Shown here: one piece after another, positions 21,135 through 61,400 of the stretch
Numbering within the stretch: position 1 is the stretch's first letter
How the letters are laid out: each line of letters starts with the position of its first letter
Notes under the pieces: model-generated
What the model was told of the DNA's origin: nothing
Database searches by the model: none
Seen by the model: only the letters and a program-made list of their open reading frames with translations
Source of the DNA: Amyelois transitella
Taxonomy: Eukaryota > Arthropoda > Insecta > Lepidoptera > Pyralidae
Direction of reading: 5' to 3'
Length of the DNA stretch: 64,000 nucleotides
Assembly (NCBI RefSeq): GCF_032362555.1
Contig: NC_083505.1
Coordinates: 8,237,501 to 8,301,500, forward strand
Position numbers and translations under genes: made by a program

Positions 21135-24100
21135 ATGGATCTTCAAACATCTCACTTAGCCGCAGCTTTGATGTCGGGTTCCACGTATAATTCAATATCA
21201 GAAACTGCACCTGCGCCTGTGGAAACTGAAGATAATAAAACAGATAAATCTAATGAAACTCGCAAAGAGCCTTCTGACGAAGATAAAGAAGAGATGGCAA
21301 GCGGGGAGGAATACAGTGATGAGGTAATTAGTGTCCTCACTATTAAAAGATTTTTAACTGTACTGAAGTAGTCTAAAAAAAATTCAATTCCATTATAAAT
21401 GTTTAGTAAATAGCTTAAGACAGAATGTATGTGGTTGGTTAGTTACAATGAATTTACACTATTGTTTGGCTTTTTCTTTACTATTCTGTAAAGAAAGAAA
21501 GAAAGAAAGAAAAATCTTTATTTGGCGCAAGATGTAACATAACATTTTCATTCATAAACAGAGATAAAAATAAAAAAAAAAATACATGATGCGACCAAAA
21601 GGGTTTCCACTCAGCATATGCATGTGTATGATGAGGTTACACAATGCGCTGATTTTCAGTGGAACCTAGTACGGAGGCTTTGCCATTCAATATGAAGGAT
21701 ACATATTAAAAATATGAACACAAAATAACAAGAAGACAGCAGTGCTAGGGAGTTAATATATGTTGAGTATGAGCGTGAGTGTAACTATGTTCTTATTGTT
21801 GAAGCAAAGTAGACAAAAGGTAGGCAGGAAGGACAAAAGGTAGGTAGAAGGAAACTACAGAAAAATGCAAAGGTTATGTAAAGGTTTGCTGTTATGTGTT
21901 GGATTGAGATTGTAGTAAGTGACTTTTCAGTTTATCTTTGAAGTGTGATACCGTAGTGCAGTTACGCACAGGTGGCGGAAGATTGTTCCAACACTTCGTA
22001 GCAGCGTATCGGAGTAGTCAGCTTCCCGACTGTAGTAGAAGATGATGCTGTTCTTATATTTCGATAATATCTTAATGAAAAATTTATAAATTAAGAATAT
22101 GCTAGTTATGCATACATACATACATACATATGATCACGTCTATATCCCTTGCGGGGTAGACAGAGCCAACAGTCTTGAAAAGACTGAATGGCCACATTCA
22201 GCTATTTGGCTTAATGATAGAACCGAGATTCAAATAGTGACAGGTTGCCAGCCCATCGCCTAAAAGAGGAATCCTAAGTTTATAAGCCTATCCCTTAGTC
22301 GCCTTTTACGACATCCATGGGAAAGAGATGGAGTGGTCCTATTCTTTTTTGTAATAGTGCCGGGAACCACACGGCACTACACGGCACTAGTTATGCTTAA
22401 AATTATATGATTAATGTTCATGATGGTATTAAATTTCATATATTAAATATGGTACATAATTTTTTAGTTTCACTTTTGTTTTAGGAAACTGAAGCACAGG
22501 CTGGGAGTAAATCTATGCCAGGCCGAGGAGTGACATTGCAAATGCTTTTGGAAGAAAAAATGTTAGAGCCAGGGACTGCTGCAATGACCATAGAATACCT
22601 GGTTAGTTATAACCTGCTTTAATTTTGTTTCAAATAAATTCAAAAGAATAGTGGCATGCATAACATATTCTACTTTTCTGTCCATAGCATCATGTATCTT
22701 CCACTGCAATTGCGCCACTATATAAATGATGCTCTAGTCATTTCTAGATTAGTGATTTAAAAGGATGATTGAAAGAAATTCTCTTAAACTTGGTATATTG
22801 ATTGTTTGTCAAGTAGGTTAAAAAAATATATATTCAAAAGAAATAAATCATAATGATCAATCCAAGCACAATATTCTCACATTATTGGCTGGGTAATTAA
22901 ATATATTTTGAATTTGAAATATTCTTTGCAAGATTGAACAAGTTTATATGACATATTTCTATGCAATATTTCACCATGAAATTAATTTATGTTGTTTTAA
23001 AATATATAATAATTTTAAAATTACAAGTATCATTGTTTAAATTTTAGGGTCAAAAGTTTGTTGGTGATTTACAATCAGATGGCAAAATAAAGTCACATGA
23101 GACAGAGACTATATTTTGCTCCCCTTCTGCATGGGCTATACATTGTAAGCGAATAATAAACCCTGATAAACGTTCTGGATGTGGTTGGGCTTCTGTGAAG
23201 TACAGGGGCAAGAAGTTGGATACCATCAAAGCAACTTATCTTCGTAAGAAGCAAATTCAGCGAGAAAATATGCACAGTGATGGTAAGATTACCTCAACAC
23301 ACCTGTGTGTAGTGTGTATAGTGTATGTAATAAGTGACATAGTATTTCATTTCCACTTTTCTAGAAACCACATACCAGTTTAGTATATTTTCCCATTTTA
23401 TAATTCAGTTCTATTATTAAGTTATGAATAATAAAATAACCTAGGTGTTCAAAGTGGAATAAACTGGACTTCAGTCTTTCAAGACTGTTGGCTCTATCTA
23501 CACCTTAAAGGATACAGACATGATTATTAATGTTTTAATGATAGATTTCTTAATGATAATGTACTGAGCAGTTTTTAAATAAATTATCAACAAAACATAA
23601 GTATAAATTTTGTGTTTATTTAATGGGGAGATGTTATGTCTCTACCCATTTCACTTGACTATGGCTTTTTCGCTCAATGTTAACTAATATCTTTTCAGAG
23701 GAAACAGAGATGGAAGTAGAGAATCCTCCTGAACCACCACCACAACGGATTGTTATGAAACATAACACTGTGCCTAACAGAATGATGCAACAGTAAGTGT
23801 GATATCTTTTTCACTTGCAGAATGATAATTATAATACAATGATAGATTTACTTATTTCAAAAAGGTACCTAACCAACTTTCTAAAAGAGGTTAAAAAACA
23901 GGAAGTTAAAAATTTCACATAAAAATGCATGCAAATGCTTAAATCTATGTTAGACTATTTTTATTTTGAGTTGTTTTTAGTAATCTTAGTATCCTATGAA
24001 GAAGTAATTGCTTGTTTATTTGCAGTGACACCAACATGCTGATAGAGGCAGTGTCATTTTCTTCAGCTGGTAAAGTGCAGCCATTCTTAGTATCTGTAAG

Positions 24101-30876: not shown

Positions 30877-33800
30877 ATGACGACAGTAACGTCAGGCTTT
30901 ACAAAAGCACCAGGGTTTGCAGACGATGGCAACCAGTCCGACGAGGACTATGTGCCCCTCTACGATGACGATGAACCAGAGTAAGCGTTTTGATTGTCAT
31001 ATTATATCAGCCTTATAAAATTAATTATCATGATGATTTTTTTTTGCGTATTATTGGAAATTCTTACCCTATTAACAATAGAAGAATATTAATGATAAGG
31101 TGGACGAAAATTTTCCTCGGTGCAGATATTTCTGCTTTTCGTTTTCTAATAAAAATTTTAACGTTTGTAACATAAGTAAGTACTTTCCATTTTTGGCTTT
31201 GACTCGAATTCTCTTTGAGGAATGTTTTTAGGAAATGTCGGAAAAATATCTCTGAAAACAAAAATACAAATAGAATTTCCAAGTCAGAAATTATAGTGAA
31301 TATCTTCACAATGGTATTTAAAAGTAATGAACCAATTAGGTACAAGATAAATCCTAATATTATAAATGCGAAAGTGTGTGAGTATGTATGGATGTTTGTT
31401 ACTCTTTTACGCAAATACAATTGAACCGATTACGATGAAATTTGGTATGTAGGTAGCTGAAGGCCCAGAATAATGCATTAAAACAGGTGGAACAAATACT
31501 TTTTTCTTCGCTACCAACCATTGTGGCAACAGTGGTATCTGGCAGTCACTACTTATATCATTTTATCGAAATTCAGTATATCCTTTGTTCATGAGCTTAA
31601 TTGCGTTGTATCCTTACATTCATACTGGTGAATTAAAGAATATTGCTCATGCTCCTATTCATATGTTAAACATAATTTGAAACAGATTAAAGTGTTTACG
31701 AAGAAAAATTACTTTATTAGCTCATTTACCTTAAATCTCATATCAGTTTCAGTCATCCATCAGATAATAAGTATATTTAATTTCTGCTTATTGCGTCGTG
31801 TTTGTCATATTTTGTTTGTTTTATCAACTAGCAAATGTCGCTGGGCTTGTATGAAAAATATCACATTTAGTTTTTGTACGTACAGACACAGAAATCAGCT
31901 TAAATTGTTATCCGGACGTATAATATTCTGCATGTTAGTCAAACTTCCAAACTAGAGAAGATCATTTGTGCATCAGTAGCCAAATCATTGAGTTTTGAGA
32001 TTTTAATCAGAGAAAAAGAATTTAAGCCTTGAGCCAAATGGAATTATGTATTTGAGTTTTAGTATTAAAAAGTTCAGACTTACAAACACGACGATATTAC
32101 CTTTAATTCTTTTATTTTTCTTTGTACAGTCAGCGAACGGCACAGGAGACGAAAGGATGGAATTTGTTCCGAGAACTTCCTGTCAAGAAGGAGAGCGGCT
32201 CCATGGCTTCATCCGAATGGATAGACATCAGCGTCAAGGCTCTCAAACTGCTTGCTTACATACTAACATTTATAGTAGTGCTGGGCTGCGCGGTTATAGC
32301 CAAAGGCACTTTACTATTTATAACGTCACAGTTGAAGAAGGGCCGCGAGATTGTACACTGTAACAGAGCTTTAGGTAAGTATTGAATTACAAAGATACCA
32401 AATCCGAATTACAAAGAAAAAAAAATTTGTTCTTTTTCCTGGAATTAGTTCCTGTTGCGTTCAACCCCGGTGGCCCCGATCCTGGAGATAAGACATTACC
32501 TAGGTATTGCAGGTAGGTACTTGACAGAGTTTCGATCATAGTTACCCATAATCTTCCTTGCTAGCTCTACCAGGTTCGATAGAATAAATCCAACTGTCTC
32601 GAGTTCATCTACGATTGTTTATTGCAATAAAACATATAGGTACCTATGAGTAAGTTCTTCATCAACAATGAATATAACAAGGCCAGTTTAATCTTGTGTG
32701 ATTCATCCTTCCTTTTATTGATAAAATAAAAAATATATGAATAATGTATTTTTTCTTAGACACTTTTGTTTTTATTTATTACAGCTTTAGATCAACAATT
32801 TTTAACAACGCTTACTTTAGAAGAGCGTGTCACATGGCTCTGGGCCGCGCTTATAGTTTTCGGTGCGCCGGAACTTGGAGTACTTCTTAGATCTGTTAGA
32901 ATATGTTTTTTCAAGACTGTAAAAAAACCAACTGCCACACAATTTTTTATCGTAAGTACGAACATTGAATTTATACCTATTTAGTAAGTTCAAGAGCGAA
33001 GCGCATTCCAAGCGCCTGTGCTGTCAGGTAACATACATACATGTATAAAATCATACTTCTTAACCAGAGGGTAGACAGAGACTACCTACATATTTCTAAT
33101 GCCACGGTCCCTGAATAATTCTTATGCTTCGTCCATTTTCATCTATCTTTTTAATTGTCAAGGTCTTAATAATGACTTTTGCCATGATGTCCTCGATTTC
33201 ATCAAGGGACGTTCGTATTCCCACTAGGCTGTCAGGATATACAAATTGAACTTTCTCTAGCTTTTTTTGCAATTTCTCTTTTTTTGTTTCACTGCGACAG
33301 AGTTCCTTTAATTTTTTTTTCAGGCGTTCATCGTCGACACGTTACACACGATAGGAGTAGCAATGTTGATTCTCATTGTTCTTCCCGAATTGGACGTGGT
33401 AAAGGGCGCTATGATAATGAATGCCCTATGCATAGTACCAGGGTTTCTCAACGCGGTTACAAGAGATAGGTCAGACCCTCGCTACTCCATGAAGCTGATT
33501 CTGGACGTGCTTTCATTATCTGCCCAAGCGACAGCATTTGTTTTATGGCCCATGCAAAGCGATAAACCAATCCTGTGGTGCTTGCCTTTAGCATGTGTTT
33601 TCATATCTCTGGGATGGTGGGAGAACTTTGTGCGCGTGCCGGATAAACATTCACCAGGTAAGAGTTCAACTAGCCTTACCAATAGTACAAGCCCCTTTCG
33701 TTTCGGTCGTCATCATTGCCTCGAAGAGATTACATTATTCGATAAGGCTGCCTTTTGAGTATGATAAGGTTTAGATTTTTAATATTTTTTTAAACACACC

Positions 33801-36800
33801 ATTAATTGTTTTAATTTTATCATTGTAAAGATATCGCATTTTTATTGTTCATGCTTACAGAAACTAAAGAGGTGTGATTGCTACGTTAAGGTTGACGTCT
33901 TACTGCTGGATTTAATCGAGATTCCCAGTTCAGAGAAAGAGTCAGGTTACTAGTTCATCGCCTAAAGAATAGATCTCAAGTTTATAAGTCTTTCCCTTTT
34001 GCTTTGAAGAGGAGAAGCTGACACACAATGTTTTAAACGCCACCATAAAAAATGCAGCGCTTATCAGATATTTAATAATTTTATACTATAAATAATAATA
34101 ATTTTGTACCTATAATTTTATTCCCAACAGTTTTCTACATTTATATGTGCGACCTCCGCGACGGACTGAAGAAGTGTCGCTACTACAGCGAGAGGTTCCT
34201 AACTCTATGGAAGCTAGTTGTGTTCGCGGGGTGCGCGATGATATCGCTACACTTGCAAGACGATGACCCTTTTTCGTTTTTCACGTCTATCGCCACGGCG
34301 TTTGGTGAACGGAACTATACCGCACATGAGGTAATATACGAAAATATCTTAACTTATTTATTTTTTAATCCAATGCACCCTCGTTTGTCTCAATAAATAA
34401 CTCTTTATTTGATAGATTTCCTTTTATGATTAATATTGTTATAAGAAATAGACCATGAGAATCGGTGATATTTTTCACTGATTTCATACGATTGCGTTGC
34501 GTGTGCTCTTAAAGGTACTTTTTGTACGAAGGATATTATGATATCATATGATAAGTACCTAAGTAGCACGATAACGGATGAAGAATTTTTATTTCTTGCT
34601 ACTTAAAAGTATTGAGTGGGATTCACCGTAATCATAATCCTTAGATAATATAGACATCCTTAGGTAACCTAGAGACGTCTTTAACCTTCCAAAATGAAAT
34701 AAGTATTAAATGACCATATAAATGGATTAAAAACTAAAGTTACCTTTTTCTTTCCTCCTAGGGTTACATCCCGGGGTGCGTCTTTAGGATTTTTACACAA
34801 AACGACTACGAGTACTATATGACCTCCTTTGCATAGGAACCTAACTCATATTAAATAATGGTTATACACTCATTCGTCTAAATGTGCAGGATTCTTCACG
34901 ATACTTTCCCTCATAGTAAGAGCTTCAGTTAGCACTTATACCAACGTATGATACTCAGAAAAAATAATTGGTATGTGGCCGAGGTAGGATTTAAATTTTC
35001 CCGACACGCATTACCTACATGCGCACTTTAGCCGGGCAATGTAACCGTTCGACCAACGATGCTCTTCAAATCACCGATGCTCGGATTAAACTGTCACCTA
35101 TCTACTCCCAAAAAATATTTGCACCGTAAATCTTCTAAAATTTTTATTATAAAGCAAACTAAGTAAGAAATAGTTCCTTTTCATCCTGAAAAAAGTACAA
35201 ACCCCGTAAAGTTTGAACTATCTATAAATTCATTTATCAGCAAAGTTGCCCATTAGTAAAATAATATATTTTTTTCAGTTTCACGTGTTTCAAGATTTAC
35301 ACACCGTGGACGACCTAAATTTCCAATTCACAAATAAGGTCTTTACTCTTCCGGCATCATGGAGTTCATCTCTCTGGGTTTCCCTGATCCAAGTTATAGC
35401 CGCTTACGTATGCTACATTAGCGCCAAGTTCGCGTGCAAGATACTCATACAGAGTTTCAGCTTTGCATTTTCTTTGAGTCTCGTGGGGCCATTCACTATA
35501 AACCTTCTTATTGTGTTTTGTGGCATAAGAAACATGAACCCATGTGCGTTCTATGGAACTATACCGGATTATTTGTTCTTCGAAATTCCACCAGGTTTGT
35601 TGTATTTTTGATATACCTATGCATATACCTATTAATTTTACGTGAATTTTATTATTTGCGAAAGTGCCTATGAAAATACACAGGTACGTGCAGTTGAAAT
35701 GATTTAAGTAAGTTCCCCAAACATTTTTTTTATTTACAGTATACACACTCCGAGATTACTTGGGTCCCGGAATGGCCTGGGTATGGGTACTGTGGCTGAT
35801 GTCGCAAGCCTGGATCTGCTTCCACGCGTGGCAGCCTCGCTGCGAGCGACTGGCGGCTACAGACAAACTGTTCTGTAAGCCCTGGTACAACGGCCCGCTC
35901 ATTGACCAGTCATTATTGATGAACAGAACCCATGACGAGGAAACCGATATATCATACGAGGTAAAAAGTGTATTATAATTTTAGTATAGGCATACACTTC
36001 AAGATTACGTAGGTCCCGGTATGGTGTGGGTGCTGTAAGCCTTGGTACAACGGCCTGCTAATTGCCCAGTCACTGTTCATGAACAGATCTCATGATGAGG
36101 AATCGTACGAGGTAAGATGAGAGCAAAATCAATCAAAAAACGTCACGCCTTTCGTTCGTTTTCATTTTGCTTACGCTTATTTTTTTTACATAATTTATAG
36201 TTAAATACTATTAAAAAATGTATTTTAACGTATTGCAGCGAAGCACGCAATACTTAATATTTTTAAAGTGAAGTTTTTGTTATACGATTTGTATGGTGTA
36301 CTACGTGTATGATGAAGGTTTATTGCGATTTTCTAGACTGGCCAGTGTTAAAAGACAGTGTTTTCAGGAGCTGAAAGAAAAGAAGAAAGAACCATCGGAA
36401 TCCAGTGAAGATGGCGATAAAGACGTCAGACCTACTGACAGCATAACAAGGTAAAATAACTGACGATTAAAATATTTTTGCGACTAAAAAACAAATGAAT
36501 CTAAATGAGAACTTCTATTTAAACTGTTCATTGACAGCAAGCATACTATAGTATCTTGTTTTCCGAGTTTTATTGTTTGTACCTCTAAAACGTGTTGAAT
36601 GTACGCAGGATATACATATGCGCGACGATGTGGCATGAAACAAAAGATGAGATGATAGAGTTTTTGAAATCCATCTGCCGACTGGACGAAGACCAATGTT
36701 CGCATCGAGTCGCTCGCAAGTACTGGGGCATCGTCAACAGCGACTATTATGAGTTGGAAGGTAAGATAGAAGTAAGACGTAAAGTTTTAATCATACATTA

Positions 36801-39800: not shown

Positions 39801-42800
39801 CTAAGCAGGCTAAAGCTAAGATCAGAGATTTTTGTGATCGCAAAATTTTCTCGTTTCCAGATATTCCTCATGGTAGGCACGGTGCTGGGCCCCGGCACCA
39901 TTTTCCTGATGATGGTGGGCGCTATGAATGCGATCACCGGCATAAGCAATATTGACGCCCTCATTTTAAACCTCATACCCATCGCCATCTACATCACAGT
40001 CTGCATGACATGCAAGTCAAATGTACAGGTAAATAGATTTTTAAATTGACTTATTTTTGTTTGTTTTTAAATGTAGACATTAATTGCTTATGTAAATTAA
40101 GATTCTAAAGTAAAAGAACTCATAGATATTAATTGTGGATTAGTTATCCGCTACCTTTCGTTACTGTTTAAATGTTTTAATATCCTTCCTAAAGTTATTA
40201 CTACATATTCTATAACATATATAACATATTAAACTTTATATGTATTAGAACATTTAAAAAATAAGGAAAGGTATAAGTCATTATAATCATAAGTCATTAA
40301 AATCCGTATGACAACTTTTGCAAAATACGTCCAGAACTTTCGGCTGCGAATTTGAGAACTCGACTGATTCTAAACTACTTAATTAATAGAAACACTGATC
40401 TTTATCATAGATTATATATAAATATGCCATCATTCTTCCTCAACAGATTTTCCTGGCTAACGCAATAACGTGCGCATACGCAATGGTAATGATGCTTGTA
40501 ATCGTAGGCATAGCTCTACAGATAACAGAAGACGGCTGGCTAGCGCCATCTAGTATCTTCACCGTGGTAACTTTTGCCTCTTTCTTCTTGACGGCAGTCA
40601 TGCACCCTCAAGAAATAATATGCCTATTGTACTTGGGAGTGTACTACATAACCATTCCAAGCATGTACATGTTGCTGATCATTTATTCTCTGTGCAACTT
40701 GAACAATGTTACTTGGGGTACCAGGGAAATTGCCCAAAAGAAATCTGCTAAGGTGAGCAAAGTCGACTTTCTTTTGGTTCTATCAATTTGATGAATAAAC
40801 GTTAATTTCTACGCCTTCTATAGCCAATTCACTTTATTATTTGAACAAAAAATGTTCTATGTGTTACTGTGTGCACATAAAAAACATACACAAAGTTGAA
40901 ATTTGTTATTTTAGAGCTCACCTATTTCCTATGCTTCTCATAATATTGCTATATTATATTATTACCCTTATTTAATGCAAGTAATTTTAAATGTCTCAAC
41001 ATGTTTTGATAGGAATTGGAAATGGAAAAGAAGGAAGTCGAAGAAGCTAAGAAGAAGATGGATAGTAACGCTGTTATGAAATGGCTCGGGAAGTCTGAAG
41101 AGGAGAGCGGGTCCATAGAGTGTGGTGTTTCGGGGCTGTTCCGTTGTATGTGCTGCACTAACCCCAAAGACCACAAAGAAGACTTGCATTTACTTCAAAT
41201 TAGCACCGCCATTGAGAAGATGGAGAGGAAATTGGATTCTCTGTAAGTATAAGTCGGTTTTAGAATAAAATAGGACAAATATCTAATGAATCGCTTAATA
41301 CCTATCATATAATCGTGTATATTTAAAATATTATATGTGAAAATTCCAGTGGAGCAACTAGCGAGCCTGTAGAAGCACCTCGACGGCGGTCGTCGATAGG
41401 GCTTCGGCGAGAGTCCGCCAGGAGGGAGTCGATGGGGATGCGCCGCGAGTCGCTTAATATTCTACAGGAGTACGCTGATAGCGATGACTCTACCGATATA
41501 CCCAAGGTTTGGAAAACTTTAATTCTTTTTATACAATAACGAAACCGCTGTAATGCCTTCAATATACGGGAACTTGATCAAATTTGGACAGGGATCCAAA
41601 TGTTGTCCGATATTTCGTCGAACCAGGTAAACTGGAGTAAAATTACCGACATTGAAGAAATTTTCATCTTATATTAAATTTAATTTTCTCATGATAATTG
41701 TATGCATAAAGTAATAGAATTTTAACTTTAACTTTTTTCTATACATTTTTTTATTTTATAGGAAGAAAGAGATGATTTAGTCAATCCATATTGGATTGAA
41801 GACCCTGGACTACAGAAAGGAGAAGTTGATTTCCTGTTGACAGCCGAAATTGAGTTCTGGAAGGATTTGATCGACACGTACTTGAGACCTATTGAAGAAA
41901 ATAAAGAAGAACAGGTAATATTAAGAAATGAATAAACTGTATCTTAAGTTTGACAATTGTTTTGTGTTGATAGGACATTTTATAAATCCTCACGTGGTTT
42001 GAATTATCTCTGTGCTTAAAGTAAAATTACGGCAAGAGTTTTGTCTGAGTATGGATAAATATATAGGTTACCGTCAGTGTGAGATTTGTTCTCAAGGGTT
42101 CCGTAGATTATGACTATCTAGAGACAAAAGATAAAGGTGACAAACCGGGGCATCTTTAACCACGATTATGAATTAGGTAAGTCAGGGTTTTCACGAAACG
42201 ACATTCGCAACCTTTACAGGGAACATAAAATGTTATCGTTATTAAACCAGGAGGAAGAAAAAGCTTATAAAACATGTTAACGAAATCGTTAAATGTTATA
42301 ATACCTTCTTTAGAGATATTAAAAGGTGAACAAACAAAACAACGCAAAACTTTAATACGTCATTTTATAGATCGACGAACTTGTTTGGCTCGAAAACTTT
42401 TTGGGAGACATTATGAGTCTGTATACTACATTCTCCTCAACAGGAACGCATCAAAACCGACTTGAAAAACTTGCGCAACACCATGGTGTTCGCGTTCATA
42501 ATGCTAAACTCCCTGTTTGTGCTCACAATATTCCTGCTGCAACTCAATCAAGACCAACTCCACATCCGCTGGCCGCTGGGAGAGTCGGTGGTTATTACTT
42601 ATGATGATGATATGAATATTGTAAGTTTACTTTTTATTTCGTTTTATTGTCTATCATATTTTAATAGTCATGCATTTCATGATCTATTTTACACACACGC
42701 CACACGGTCATTTGACGGAAATTTACAAAGCATATGTTTTATCTTCCTTCAGGTAGATTGGTCGACAGAAGACGACGATTATGCATTATAGATCCTAATT

Positions 42801-52438: not shown

Positions 52439-55400
52439 ATGGCGGCGTCGGGAGGGAAGCGCCGTGACGACGGCAGCGATAATTCAGACGACGAGCTCAC
52501 ACCACTGGCCAACGAGATTTACGGCGGCAGGTGAGTTCATGCATCTTCTTGATAGGTTAGAAGGTGCAACTGGCAAAACGCAAAACGCTATCTTCAATCA
52601 CATTAGTCCTGCCAGCGATTTCGGCCACTTTTTATATATATATTAAGATTTATATCTTAACTTCTTATGTTATTCCAATTTCTAATCTTTATTATTACTG
52701 CAACTATACAATACTAATATAACTGCAACATTTTATGAAAATCCTTTAAATAGTACTTTTTGAGTAAAAGAGTAACACACACAAACAGACATCCTTACAT
52801 TCTAACACATTTAAAATATTAGTAGGATACATTTCGCATATTACGGCAGTTCTAGCTTTTCCCAAGAATAGCAAGAAAATCAATTAGTATTTCTATGAAA
52901 TCTTTGTCATTATGGATTCATCATCTGTACCTATGACAAATATCAGCGAAATTCATTCAGTCCGCCAATCGCGAAATATAAGGTTAATACAATAAAGCAG
53001 TTAAACTGTGCATTATTATAAGTCAGTCACTTAATTTGTCCTTTTGTGTAGTTTAAACTAATCATGAATAAGGTAGATTAGTAACTACCAAAACGGTAGT
53101 TTTCTAACTTCATGCCAACGAAAACTTTCTAATACTGTTTAATCAGTGATATCTCATTAACATCTAAATCAATATTTATACAAGCTAGTCAGATTTTACT
53201 TAAAGTCGCGTGATGTTTCCTAATTGCTATTCTAAACCGATGTTCTTAGTCACCAGTTTTAGCGTTGGAGAATACAGTTTTGATTACGTGGAGATGCCAC
53301 GAGTCGACCTCAGAAACTGGATGTGGCATATGACATCATAACGCGTCATCACATTTTGGCTACACGCTATTTTTAATACACGTCATATGATAGTTGGTCA
53401 GGTCATTTTTACGAAAACTCTTTTAGAAAAGAGATTACTCAATTTTTGTTTTGTCTTTTTAACGATTTTGCAATGAAACTGAAATTACATAATTTTACAT
53501 ACAATCATTATTTTTGTTAAGATGAAATAATAAATCACAATTTTGCCGTGACATGATTGCCAAATGACAATTTGCGACTTCTGACCGGTTTTCTCAGGTA
53601 ATAAGATACAAGAAATTGGACCTACTCATACGGAATCTTGTAAATTATTTATTAATTTATTCACTATTTTTCCATAAAATGAACGATGACTAGAATTTAA
53701 TGGTTCTAGCTGAACTATGGCAAACATAAGATTTCAATATACTATTATGAAATAGTTAATTGTGTCATTATATGCGTGTACGCATAGCAATGTTGTTAAT
53801 CTGCTCTAGTAAGGAACATGACGCATTATTTTCCCATCAGACCACGCAATAGTGCGTTGTTCTGTTCTTGAGCAATCCAACAATACCACATAACAACACT
53901 GCATCAGTTCCGCTTCTACGGAGACTCTCACTCACGACCAAGATGTGAAAATCACTGCGATGAATCTCAGATTTGCTCTAACAGAGTTGAACAAAACCAT
54001 TTCTTTTATCGTAGTTCGTATCTAATTGGTTCTGCGGTTAAACACCATGTACTTTTATGTATGAAATCATTATGTGAATTGATAATTATATTAAGGAAAT
54101 TTCTGCTTTCCTCTTCCTTAGTCTTCTCGAACATATTCCTTAAATTATGCTTATACTTTAATATCTGCCTATCCCTCCGGGAAGAAGAGTTGTTGTACTG
54201 AAAGGAAACTCTTCTCTGTTTCAATAATCCCAAAAACCAACTTGAACAATTGTAGTCAAAAACATATTAAATAAAGTACTCTGTGCTGTAAAATGCACTT
54301 GGCTTTTGCATGCAGATCACAAAAGGCATCTGTAAACCAGTTCTAGCCAAGACCTAGACTTCACAAAATAAATGAAAAGGAGCGGCGTCGTACTTCGCTT
54401 TGTTAGAGGTCGGTTCACATTTGCCGATCGGTCACACTGTCTACAAAATAAAGTCAGAGTAGAAGTATTTACATTATAATAATACAATAGTAAGAGGCAT
54501 ACGTAACATTGTTAAAAAATCGCATAACTATAGCATATTCTTCTTAAAAATCTCCATTTTCACATACTGTAATAAAACGTAGTTAAAAGGTGATGATGTA
54601 AATAAATAAAAGTACCAACTCACGTTCGTAGTGTCATAGGTATTGTTAGGATTGGAAATAAAGAAATTATTGCGTTGAGTGTTCTATACTTTTGTTATTC
54701 TGTATAGTGTGTCCGGAACCCACTCAAATGCCAAGGTTGACAACTCTGACGACACAACTTTCGATCAATCGACTGCGCCACATTTTTGCGCCCCACTTGC
54801 GCTACGGCCTTAGATCAAGCGCCTAGACTTTATCCATTTGTAAGAATTGAAAACGCATTTTCTATATACCACCACCAATTTACACACGCGACTTCGATCG
54901 TGTGTAAATTGAAGCCGATGAATAAACTGTATCATACTATCATACCTACTCACAATTTTTTTTTACTTTGAGTTTATTAACATCTTTCGCATTTAAGTTC
55001 GTATAAACCGGTAAATAATAAATAAATACGGGACAAATTACATAAATTGAGTTAGCCTCGAAGTAAGTTTGAAACTTGTGTTACGAGATACTCACTCAAC
55101 GATACTATATTTTATAATAAATACTTAGATAGAAAAACATCCAAGACCCAGATCAATCACAGAAAGTTCGTTTCTCGTCATGCCCTGACCAGGATTCGAA
55201 CCCGGGACCTCCGGTGTCACAGACAAGCGTATTACCGCTGCGCCACAAAGGCCGTCAAATATATATAGGTATGTAGGTAAGGAGAATTTTAGAAATACTC
55301 AGAGCCAGGTCCCGGCAAAAGCTAGTTCAAAACACATAGAAAAACATTACACTTTTAAGAAAGACATTACAATTTTAGTAGTTAAAATCCTATATACTTA

Positions 55401-58400
55401 TAACTGTGGTGCAGCATGGGACGAGTGGGGTCAGGCGTGCTCGGAATACGGGATGAGGACGAGCCGCCACGCTCAACCGCAATCGCTACCAACATCTTGT
55501 ACCAGCGTGACCGCAACTTTGTTCACGTGTGGTGATTTGAAATGAGAAAACGTAAATTAATGCTTTGTGCCTGTATGCACAAATTCACGGCACCAATCTA
55601 CGTAGAGCTGTGCATGTCAGCAATGAATTCTCTATTCCTATATAAATCCTATGGCAAAAGTGAATGAATTCTCTATTCCTATATAAATCCTATGGCAAAA
55701 GTGGTCAAAAATACGCACCCTGGGCTCTCTCCGGAGAGGTGAGGATGTAACCGGGACCAACGCCAGAAACCAGAAGAGAAATAGATTTAATCCGGTGCTT
55801 TGTTACCGTGAATAAAAAAAATTAAATAAAATCACATTAACTATGCATATTTGCACGTACGAGTGTTTGTATGAATATAAAACACATATGTATATCGTAT
55901 CAGAATATTTACCGACGCGTTGATGTCTTTTACAAGAACAAAGTTTACATTCTTTTTCATAACAGTATGCCACTCTTTTCGCTTTGGCCATTCGTTTTTG
56001 AATGGTTAACTGTTAAAACAACTAAAAATAATATGACACTAGAGAATTAAAATTAAATAAAGGTACGTTAAACTTGTAAGTGATGTAATAATGTAAAACA
56101 TGGGAATAAAACAATGAGCTATAGGTAAGAATTAAAACCATGCAGACAGTTTTAAGGTTTTACGTTCGTCGCCAGGTCGTTGACCCGGGCTGCGTTGGAC
56201 ATTCGATATATGGGCATGTATCTGAAGGCATCATTTAGCATAACAAACATCACCTTCCGAATCGAACAATTTTATTATTGACCTCAACGCAAAATATTAC
56301 GTGACACTGTCATGAAGGAAAATTTCATTTTGATTTATCCATGTATATAACGTCTCTATCCCTTACGAGGTAGATAGAGTTAAGTCAGCCTTCTTTAGAT
56401 ACATACATATGGTCACGTCTTTATCCCTTGTTGGGTAGACAGAGCTAACAGTCTTGAAAAGACTGATAGGCTACGCTCAGCTATTTGGCTTTATGATAGA
56501 ATTGAGATTAAATAGTGGAATCTTTAGATTGTTTTTTATTGTTTATTGGTGCGCTGTATATTATGCATCAGGAGACTTTTTATTATAAAAAAAATATATA
56601 TTAAGGAATCTGACCTATGAGGTACAGCTATATTCAACTTTTAAGAATTTCAATAATATTCATAGCTTCAAAAAGTCAAGGCGAAAAAGTGCTTCATGTA
56701 TTTGGAATGCATTTCGCATGAAGTGTAAATGAACATGATTTGACACACGACACGAGTTAGCTTCGACGTGAGCCATCAGATGAAGACTTTCGTAAGTTTT
56801 CGTGCGCTCGAACGACATTGACTGATCTATTGTTAGAAACGTGGGGCGCCGAGCGATAGACTATCGTGATATTACTGACTTATCTTGATATCAAGGGTAA
56901 AACATATAAGCAATCATAAAATATAGTAATTATACAAACGTATATAGGTATATAATAAGTTTGAAAACTATTAAAATTGTTTAAAAAAATAAATAATAGC
57001 TCCATATATCTAGGGTTATTTCACAAATATTTATTCACCTGTCAATATATCAGTAGCGAATACATTCAGCTTTTTATGTATGCTTGCGTGTATTGTCAAT
57101 AGTATATAATAAATATTAAAATTAAAGAATGTTTATCAAATTTCTGAAGCAATTAATGTAGAGGCATTGTTAAAAGTAAGCCATATACATATTTTTCTAA
57201 ATCCAATGCTGTATTGTAATTTGTTATATTTCTTTTTATGTATTGCAATAAAGAGTTCACAAACAAAAAAACAGAGTAGTACCTATGTATATGTTCACTT
57301 GTTTATTACATTTACTAGCATTGTTCAATTATTGTGACCACAATCTACAATGCACTTATGTCTGTTGAAATATTTCAAGACAAGAAATTCTTCTTACTAG
57401 CGATATCCGATCAAGATAACATTATGCTGTGGGAGGTGCGTGCACCTTTAAATACATGCTCGTGCCTATAGAGAATGTACAAGTCTAGTCTAGAGGAAGG
57501 CGGCATTGTAGAATTTGTATCGAACGATTTGAATATAATAAAAGTTAATTCCAAATTTTAACAGCATAGCCTTCGCACTGGAGTCGGCTGGAGTTTTGCT
57601 TAATAATGATAACAAGATGTGAAATATATTTTATATAGATAAAACTTAAAAAATCTAGTAATCCGCTCTGTAGTCTGTGAAACGTTTAGCGACTTTAAGA
57701 TGAATCGGTTTTAGTTGTCACTCTCCTCTTAATTTTAACATTCTTTCCCTGCTACTCGTATAAAAGAAATATGTTACGCACATCCCGTATGGAGTCTTTT
57801 CAGATTGCTGTCATCTATTCTGAAGTTTAACATTATAATTTATGACATAAGAAATAGTTAATGAGATACGAATATAATCAGGAAAGTAACTTTCATTAGA
57901 GAAGTCGTGTGGTATCGCCATCACATAGCAATTAGAACGCCGGGCGATATAATTTCACATGCTTACTGCTGCAGAACGAAGAACTCGGAGTCGCCGCCCG
58001 GTGCATGTGCTCATAGGATCTTTTGTTGAGACTGGCCAATCTTTTAATTCTTTAAATAATGCTTAATCTCAATATGATAATTTTGCAACAAAGTTTAAAA
58101 AGCACTTTATCTGTATGACTGTATTTTTATTGATCCTTGATAAAAGCCATTGTAGATTTTCCACTTATTTTCTGACCGCAGCGACTGATTTGAATTCAGG
58201 TGTAAAAGTTAGTCACCTTTTAGTTGATTGATCCTTTAACGTTTATATTTGAACTTGGTTCACTATGATGTTGAAACTGCGATAAGAATTTAAGTAGATT
58301 AAAAAGAATAAGTACTTATTGTTTTAAAATAGTCTATCAAATCAATACAATATTATAATGCGACAAACAGAAAGAAAACATTTTCCCACATAATTAATAT

Positions 58401-61400
58401 TCACGTTCAGTCTTTTGAAAACAATGACGAATCGGCGTCCATTGGACACGCGTGCCGCCCCGGCAGTCGTTATTGCGATCGCACCGTTTGCTGTCCTCAT
58501 AACAACACGAGTTATTGAACAATACTTGCCCAAGCAGGACATGCGAGTACAGACACCATCGTCCTGACAAACTTTCCCTTACTTTTCCAGTAAAATTACA
58601 GTGATGAGTGCAATATCATAAGTGTAGTACAAAAACAAGGATATGAGTGAACACGACAGAAGAAGCTATTATGAAAAAGATCCAGGCGATGAAAATTTGT
58701 ACGGGGCGAACAATAATTCCTTATATAGTAATGGAACATTACATTATTGCAGCATTTACAGGTAAAAGGAAGGCGGTTCCTGTCATTAGGCCAATTAATA
58801 TTGTTGCACTTCCCTATAAATCACAATCGCAAATGTTCAAATATTGCAAATCGTTCTTCTTACGCACTACTGAATCTAGATGCATGATAAATGCCAATAA
58901 ATTTTGCTGAAAAGAACAACTGTAAACTGATTTCTGGGCGCACTTACTCTTTCATTAATCAAAATAATTATGTATTACAAAATAAATTTTAATATTCATT
59001 AAATGTATTTCAAAATTCTTAAAGAATAAAATTTTATTAATTCAAGGGACCTAATGCACATGCAATCATGTGAAAATGAATACGAGAAATATCAAAAAAC
59101 CGTTTCCTATAATTTTACTTATCGTAATTTTTTTCAGGAACCAATTAACTTAAATGAAACTTAATTGCTTCCCCCTATAGTACCTATGTAACATAGCATA
59201 CTTGCCTTTTTATTATATTAAAACTAGTATTATAAACCTGTAACTATTTGAATCTCAATGTCTGAACGTGGGCTTTAAGTCTTTTTAAGAATGTTGGCTC
59301 AGTCTGCCCCGTAAGGGATATACTCGTACTTACACACAATTAACATCAGCCACTCCCGTTTTCTTACTTTGACCACATTTACATATAGTCACGTCGACTA
59401 TATGTAAATGTGGTCAAAGTAAGAAAACGGGAGTGGCTGATGTTAATTGTGTGGAAACTATGCAGTTTGACCGTCGTACTGTCTAATTGGGTTACCGCTG
59501 TACCACCGTAACTTACGTAAACCCCTGTCACAACTGTGGTACGCGAACCCAGTGCGATTGTGGCGAAACAATTCAATTCCTTTTTGGTGTGAATGATTTA
59601 TGAGCTTAATTTAGCGCCTCCTTATTAAGAGAATGAGCGCGTAAAACTGTGTTCTTAATTCCGTTAATTTACTTGTTCATTGTATCACATTTACTTCTTG
59701 CTATTATATACCTAGAGGAGAAAATTTTATTTTAACATTTTCATGTTCAAGACGATCATTTAATAGGTTTTTTTTATAAAGTACCAAAATCATAATACTT
59801 GAAAGGTTTTTTATCCATAACCCACTCTGTCGGATGCGTACATTTCATAGGTTGGTGTTAAGGTCTCAAAGTCTCAAATATAAGTATAATATATTAATTA
59901 TAAACAGTAATTGCATTTTAAACCAGCATTCATTTCCTATGTAATATGCACTGTACCTTTACCTTTAAATCTGATAAGATATTAACAAAAGTTGGGACTA
60001 TGCGAGACATCGGAGGTACCTATACTGAGCTACGTCGTCGCTCGGAAGGAAGACTACCGTACATGACATGACGTGACAATGTACGAGATTTCTCTCGCTG
60101 ATCGGCACCGTGTGAAAGTTGTTTTTTTTTTAGTATTTATTAGAGCTCATGGCTGTGAAATGTACTGATTCCATATTTTTAAATTATTTTGGGAGAGTTC
60201 AGCTTTTGTTGCATCGATGTCTACACAAAATACCTCATCTTTAGTTCTAGAAAAGACATAGGAATACTTATCAAAATTTGAAGAGCAAAACTCATAGGTT
60301 TTTGCTTTTCGTCAAATCGTCATATTAATTAACACCTTTACTAAAGAAATAAATATATACGGGACAAATTACACTGATTGAGTTAGCCTCGAAGTAAGTT
60401 CGAAACTTGTGTTATGACATACTAACTCAACGATACTATATTTTATAATAAATACTTATATAGATTAACATCCAAGACCCAGGCCAATCAGAAAAAGTTC
60501 ATTTCTCATCATGCCCTGGCCGGTATTCGAACCCGGGACCTCCGGTGTCACAGACAAGCGTACTGCCGCTGCGCCACAGAGGCCGTTTTACTACAATCAT
60601 ATAACACGTTAGTCTTTATCTTCTTCACGGTAAATAACTACGGCATTTAGTTTCACGTCATAAACTTTTACTTAACTCTGGTTTATTTCTCTTTCCAGCC
60701 AAAGAACCGTCCAAGAAACAAAAGGATGGGACGTGTTCCGGGAGTTTCCGCCGAAGCAGGACAGTGGGTCGATGGAGAGCCAGAAGTGCTTGGAGTTCAC
60801 AGTGCGCCTGCTGAAGGTGTTGGCCTATATCGTAGTGTTCGTAGTGGTGCTCGGCTCTGGAGTTATTGCCAAGGGCACAGTACTATTTATGACCTCGCAG
60901 CTGAAGAAAGATAAGCGGTTATCGTTTTGTAATAGGAATTTAGGTAAGTTTGTAATAAGATTCTGCAATATATTCTCAGCAGGTTATATTGAAACGTATA
61001 TATACCATCTCTTAAAATACCCCCTTAATCCAAACGTGGCATCCTTTTCTTTCTATAGCTTGCTGTATAATATGTCGCAAGCACAAGTTATTATTTTAAA
61101 CTGACTAGAAATATGATATGACATATTTCAAAATAATCCTCTTGAAAAAAAAAATAACTAAACAATTTATTTTTCAGGTAGGGATAAACAATTTTTAGTC
61201 ACTTTGCCAGACGAAGAGCGGGTAGCCTGGATGTGGGCTCTTCTTGCGGCCTTTGCGATACCTGAGATAGGAACGCTCATACGATCAGTCAGGATATGTT
61301 TCTTCAAGTCTTCGAAACGGCCTACGAGCGCCCAGTTTATTGTGGTGAGTAGAAAACAATAGTTTTCAATACCAGCAGATTATCCAACCGCGAAATGATG

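Follow-up and report, generated by a model that had tools for sequence, protein, structure and literature searches.

Does chitin synthase A (CHS-A) of the moth Amyelois transitella start from either of two alternative first coding exons, and what would the choice between them change in the enzyme? Such a switch is already known, having been published for Bombyx as CHSA-2a/2b. According to passages of PMC6001065, BmCHSA-2a and BmCHSA-2b are served by promoters P1 and P2, with P1 driving 2a and P2 situated in the 2a-2b interval, and 2b, which Deaf1 activates and methylation represses, rises in the wing at the mid-pupal stage; a passage of PMC7472703 assigns 2a to early and 2b to middle stages. 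We analysed a stretch of 64,000 nucleotides of A. transitella DNA (the window, part of contig 1 in a 327-Mb genome), in which the original prediction had placed a CHS-A first-exon switch. With a probability of roughly 0.8, we read the locus as a lepidopteran CHS-A with two promoters and the alternative pair of first coding exons already known, in a layout matching that of BmCHSA-2a/2b. CHSA-2b was reportedly called Lepidoptera specific, and required for pupal wing development, by Xu et al. 2017, and a 2020 paper is said to describe its control by BR-CZ4 and FoxJ.

By its domain, motifs and exon structure, the gene is identified as a lepidopteran chitin synthase A (chitin synthase 1). When the gene is compared with a tandem paralogue upstream, 20 exon frames of the former correspond to 19 frames of the latter at 35-91% identity, in our own tally, which leaves aside repeat matches and off-frame matches. 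The motifs GEDRW and QRRRW stand in a CHS-A frame at 65690-65923, and passages of PMC7240487 give EDR(W) and QRRRW as chitin synthase signature motifs. The profile PF03142 exceeds its cut-off at four stretches, two in CHS-A beyond the window end (contig 1, 8302504-8302644 and 8303181-8303357) and two in the upstream paralogue inside the window; since it also matches in 4 of 14 prokaryote control genomes, the profile alone cannot name the gene, which has both the domain and the two motifs expected of an insect CHS-A. About 5.5-6 kb past the window end lies a mutually exclusive-looking pair of CHS-A C-terminal exons (69478-69639 and 69812-69973 in window numbering), alike in 39 of 52 residues when counted by eye, the frames of both of which match a single CHS-B exon at 42441-42608. 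We take such a duplicated C-terminal pair to mark CHS-A as against CHS-B, and with this pair included the gene is distinct from its gut paralogue, CHS-B.

Variant pairs of insect CHS1 are numbered exon 19a/19b, and the exons at ~69478 and ~69812 form a like pair. By their titles, papers on CHS1 variants are said to cover Bactrocera, planthoppers, locust and Tribolium. The pair at the other end of the gene is of a different kind: whereas exons 19a and 19b are duplicated, homologous and internal, exons 2a and 2b are first coding exons that are mutually unlike. Within CHS-B, we noted a partial second copy of exon 35733-35962 at about 35993-36111, in two recognisable pieces in different frames, of which the second ends in a donor-like GAG|GTAAGA; it is the decayed remnant of a duplicated exon of the gut gene. 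A match with 3 mismatches at 23079 was considered as the first coding exon of CHS-B and judged unconvincing.

Three exons define the 5' end of the CHS-A coding region:

52439-52530, + strand: CHS-A exon 2a, coding part, with a start codon, a 31-residue N-terminus including the split Ser, and a phase-2 donor.
58643-58761, + strand: CHS-A exon 2b, coding part, with a start codon, a 40-residue N-terminus including the split Ser, and a phase-2 donor.
60699-60943, + strand: first shared CHS-A exon, which fits both 2a and 2b and holds the first predicted transmembrane helix.

Exon 2a comprises 92 nt (30 codons plus 2 nt) and ends in the donor CAG|GTGAGT, and exon 2b comprises 119 nt (39 codons plus 2 nt) and ends in CAG|GTAAAA. 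The shared exon is preceded by TTTCCAG, opens with C60699 and ends at 60943 in TAG|GTAAGT. Joined to this exon, either donor yields the split codon AG|C, and because both joins complete Ser, that residue is counted in the unique N-termini of 31 and 40 residues. On direct reading, the coordinates, ATG starts, AG|GT donors, phase 2 and common acceptor given by the original prediction all proved exact, and its claim that the exon at 60699 completes one split codon holds for both donors. Each start codon has an in-frame stop close upstream, at 9 nt for 2a and 18 nt for 2b, an arrangement that would fit first coding exons carrying their own starts. Exon 2a with exons 3-8 runs for 524 codons without a stop, and exon 2b, entering in the same phase, is stop-free through the same stretch; at the level of sequence, two ATG exons can join one exon in one phase, and share one enzyme body. 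The frame of the full CHS-A model is intact only to exon 8, with 33 stops after it, a break that is probably due to a small exon missed by the model.

The phase itself has a counterpart in the paralogue. Over 90 residues, intron-flanking ones counted, the frame of the shared exon has 60% identity with the CHS-B frame at 32113-32382, and since the acceptor of this homologous CHS-B exon (TACAG|T) is likewise in phase 2, that phase is probably older than the 2a/2b switch. The phase was thus probably inherited, with both first exons conforming to it.

Could exon 2b be an unused open frame, thrown up by chance within a large intron, with 2a as the sole CHS-A start? We scored donor sites on a matrix built from 25 other CHS-A and CHS-B donors (training scores 5.3-13.2), on which the donors of 2a and 2b reached 11.9 and 11.1, respectively. 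The acceptor at 60699 scored 11.7, but itself belonged to the training set, whose 25 acceptors included one wrongly chosen site (score -0.3). In the 8.2-kb intron (52541-60698), 2b is the sole frame that opens with ATG, extends to 30 or more codons and ends in a phase-2 donor this strong, and the reverse strand of the same interval holds no such frame. Under criteria chosen after 2b had been seen, none of 200 simulated introns (first-order Markov) held such a frame of at least 39 codons. When the donor cut-off was relaxed to the weakest training site, two candidates were found (2b, and 55416-55531 with a donor of 5.4), against 0.52 per simulated intron. Exon 2b also occupies the position of its Bombyx namesake, after 2a and before the shared exons, as described in passages of PMC6001065. 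A chance frame is thus very unlikely in our estimate, even though the codon score and the Pfam search speak for one.

For codon usage, a score table was built from CHS-A exons 3-8. On this table 2b scored -0.43 bits per codon, a value equalled or bettered by 78.5% of 628 open intron stretches, from which 2b is indistinguishable, and a shifted frame of 2b outscored the true frame (-0.21 vs -0.43). Codon statistics lend exon 2b no support, and this intron-like score agrees with the earlier remark that so short an exon is easily missed by gene finders. Exon 2a scored +0.43, a level that 0.6% of 1138 stretches attained; one of its shifted frames, however, scores 0.49, so the 2a value mostly reflects base composition (63% G+C in 2a vs 34% in the intron).

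At E 1, Pfam returned no family for three peptides, namely 2b joined to exon 3, which is again what a chance frame would give, and two frames of the shared exon. Among solved structures, no chitin synthase relative was found for either 2a plus exon 3 or 2b plus exon 3, with three (2a plus exon 3) and one (2b plus exon 3) matches to odorant receptors at E 0.91-1.6; a comparison of viral contigs with exon 3 gave 6 pattern stretches, none confirmed. Strings of the 2b peptide, in guessed spellings, had no occurrence in the literature text. In the genome, the 2b peptide matched once, to itself, as did 501 bases of DNA comprising 2b and its flanks, the DNA search being one that passes over very frequent words. 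Exon 2b is single-copy in these searches, and because DNA and peptide match only themselves, we rejected the idea that 2b was copied recently from an abundant transposon.

The surroundings of 2b contain several repeats. Two copies of one element, 55017-55255 and 60348-60586, flank the exon in the same orientation, are 90% alike and terminate in a minus-strand sequence resembling tRNA-His. A first look at the genome gave 4168 candidates, of which 40 were scored, and this abundant element looks like a tRNA-derived SINE. Between 2b and the shared exon, 59330-59456 consists of two almost perfectly complementary 61-nt arms around a 5-nt loop, an inverted repeat that would be present in the pre-mRNA of the 2a and 2b isoforms alike. 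The core of this palindrome matched only itself among 40 scored of 1301 candidates, and the sequence just 5' of it, 59262-59322, is a common repeat. The 2a-2b interval also holds a perfect tandem duplication of a 41-bp unit at 55622-55703.

If the gene is a CHS-A with alternative first coding exons, a transcript from an upstream promoter would have 2a joined to exon 3, and one from a promoter in the 2a-2b interval would have 2b joined to exon 3. Two features upstream of 2b bear on such an arrangement:

52531-58642, + strand: interval expected to hold the 2b promoter if the locus is organised as in Bombyx (P2), from the Bombyx layout.
58350-58574, no strand assigned: CpG-rich cluster directly 5' of 2b, with 13-14 CpG per 150 nt.

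The likeness to Bombyx is one of arrangement. BmCHSA-2a and BmCHSA-2b are described in passages of PMC6001065 as having two alternative exons 2 with different starts, the rest of the protein being almost identical, and there, as here, 2b lies downstream of 2a with space for an internal promoter between them. The 2a-2b interval is large enough for a promoter placed like P2, which bears out the earlier suggestion that there is room for separate promoters. By analogy with the CpG-rich 2b leader in Bombyx, the cluster at 58350-58574 is possibly a leader or promoter element of 2b; segments of 150 nt with at least 14 CpG make up 1.2% of all those in the 64 kb, with others near ~51600, ~52400 and ~56700. 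A 38-base probe for the Bombyx CpGI2 element, approximate in that it was taken from the printed mutant form with C placed at every choice of 3 AG sites, scored at best 24 against the 2 kb 5' of 2b, compared with a mean of 23.9 and a maximum of 29 in 40 shuffles. Here the two moths differ, the CpGI2 probe being unrecognisable 5' of the Amyelois 2b, and the likeness concerns layout. As for core-promoter words, one TCAGT lies within 1.5 kb of each start, where about 1.5 would be expected. For exon 2a, the first 19 bases match an ORF primer for Spodoptera litura SlCHS1, given in a passage of PMC7240487, at 17 of 19 positions, a conservation of the 2a start with the CHS-A cDNA of another moth that covers this one species.

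A single promoter with a common non-coding exon 1, from which 2a and 2b would be spliced as alternatives, is the other arrangement to be weighed. The Bombyx exon number 2 would suggest that an exon 1 exists, and upstream of 2b a spliced leader has room: the nearest acceptor scoring at least 8.2 lies at -443 from the 2b ATG, the intervening 442 nt containing none, and the 900 nt upstream of the 2a start codon are likewise free of acceptors of that score. Against this, P1 leads to 2a and P2 to 2b in Bombyx, where, in passages of PMC6001065, reporter and binding tests were done on the P2 CpG island. We regard the single promoter as unlikely. The two promoters and the mid-pupal wing use of 2b that we favour are taken from the Bombyx papers, and by the same analogy we infer that both exons would be used and controlled likewise in A. 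transitella.

What, then, would the switch between 2a and 2b change? Because both exons leave the same split Ser codon, either donor fits the acceptor at 60699, and the body of the enzyme would therefore stay constant, with differences confined to the N-terminal tip and to how expression is controlled. The original prediction had further placed both tips on the cytoplasmic side of the membrane; its alternative first exons are upheld by the anatomy and the Bombyx layout, whereas this placement is not. A hydropathy scan covering exons 2a and 3-8 gave 20 segments that overlap and that we combined, by eye, into nine helices; a stretch rich in tryptophan, left unflagged by the scan, would make a tenth and switch the parity. 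The side of the N-terminus is ambiguous, since it depends on whether nine or ten helices are counted. Published accounts, as far as their passages go, vary as well: one gives 7-10 helices, allows the N-terminus to lie on one side or the other, and predicts the catalytic domain to be inside in some insects and outside in others (PMC5573318); the catalytic domain is called cytoplasmic in PMC12431666; and GFP tags on Kkv are termed cytoplasmic in passages that leave the tagged end unstated (PMC9894549).

Both tips are net acidic. Among its 40 residues, that of 2b counts 6 tyrosines, one sorting-like motif of the form YxxI (YCSI) and a pair of sequons for N-glycosylation (NNS and NGT), and that of 2a has neither a YxxI motif nor a sequon, by sequence patterns applied by eye. 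It is doubtful that the 2b tip alters the behaviour of the enzyme beyond its timing; if it did, the switch could route CHS-A to another membrane domain in wing or scale cells, and if the tip lies outside, sugar could be added to it.

Codon-based gene finding would tend to overlook exon 2b. Combined with the C-terminal exon pair, the choice between 2a and 2b would make up to four CHS-A isoforms possible, and the locus adds one moth in which a wing-related CHS-A first-exon switch may be read from the genome.
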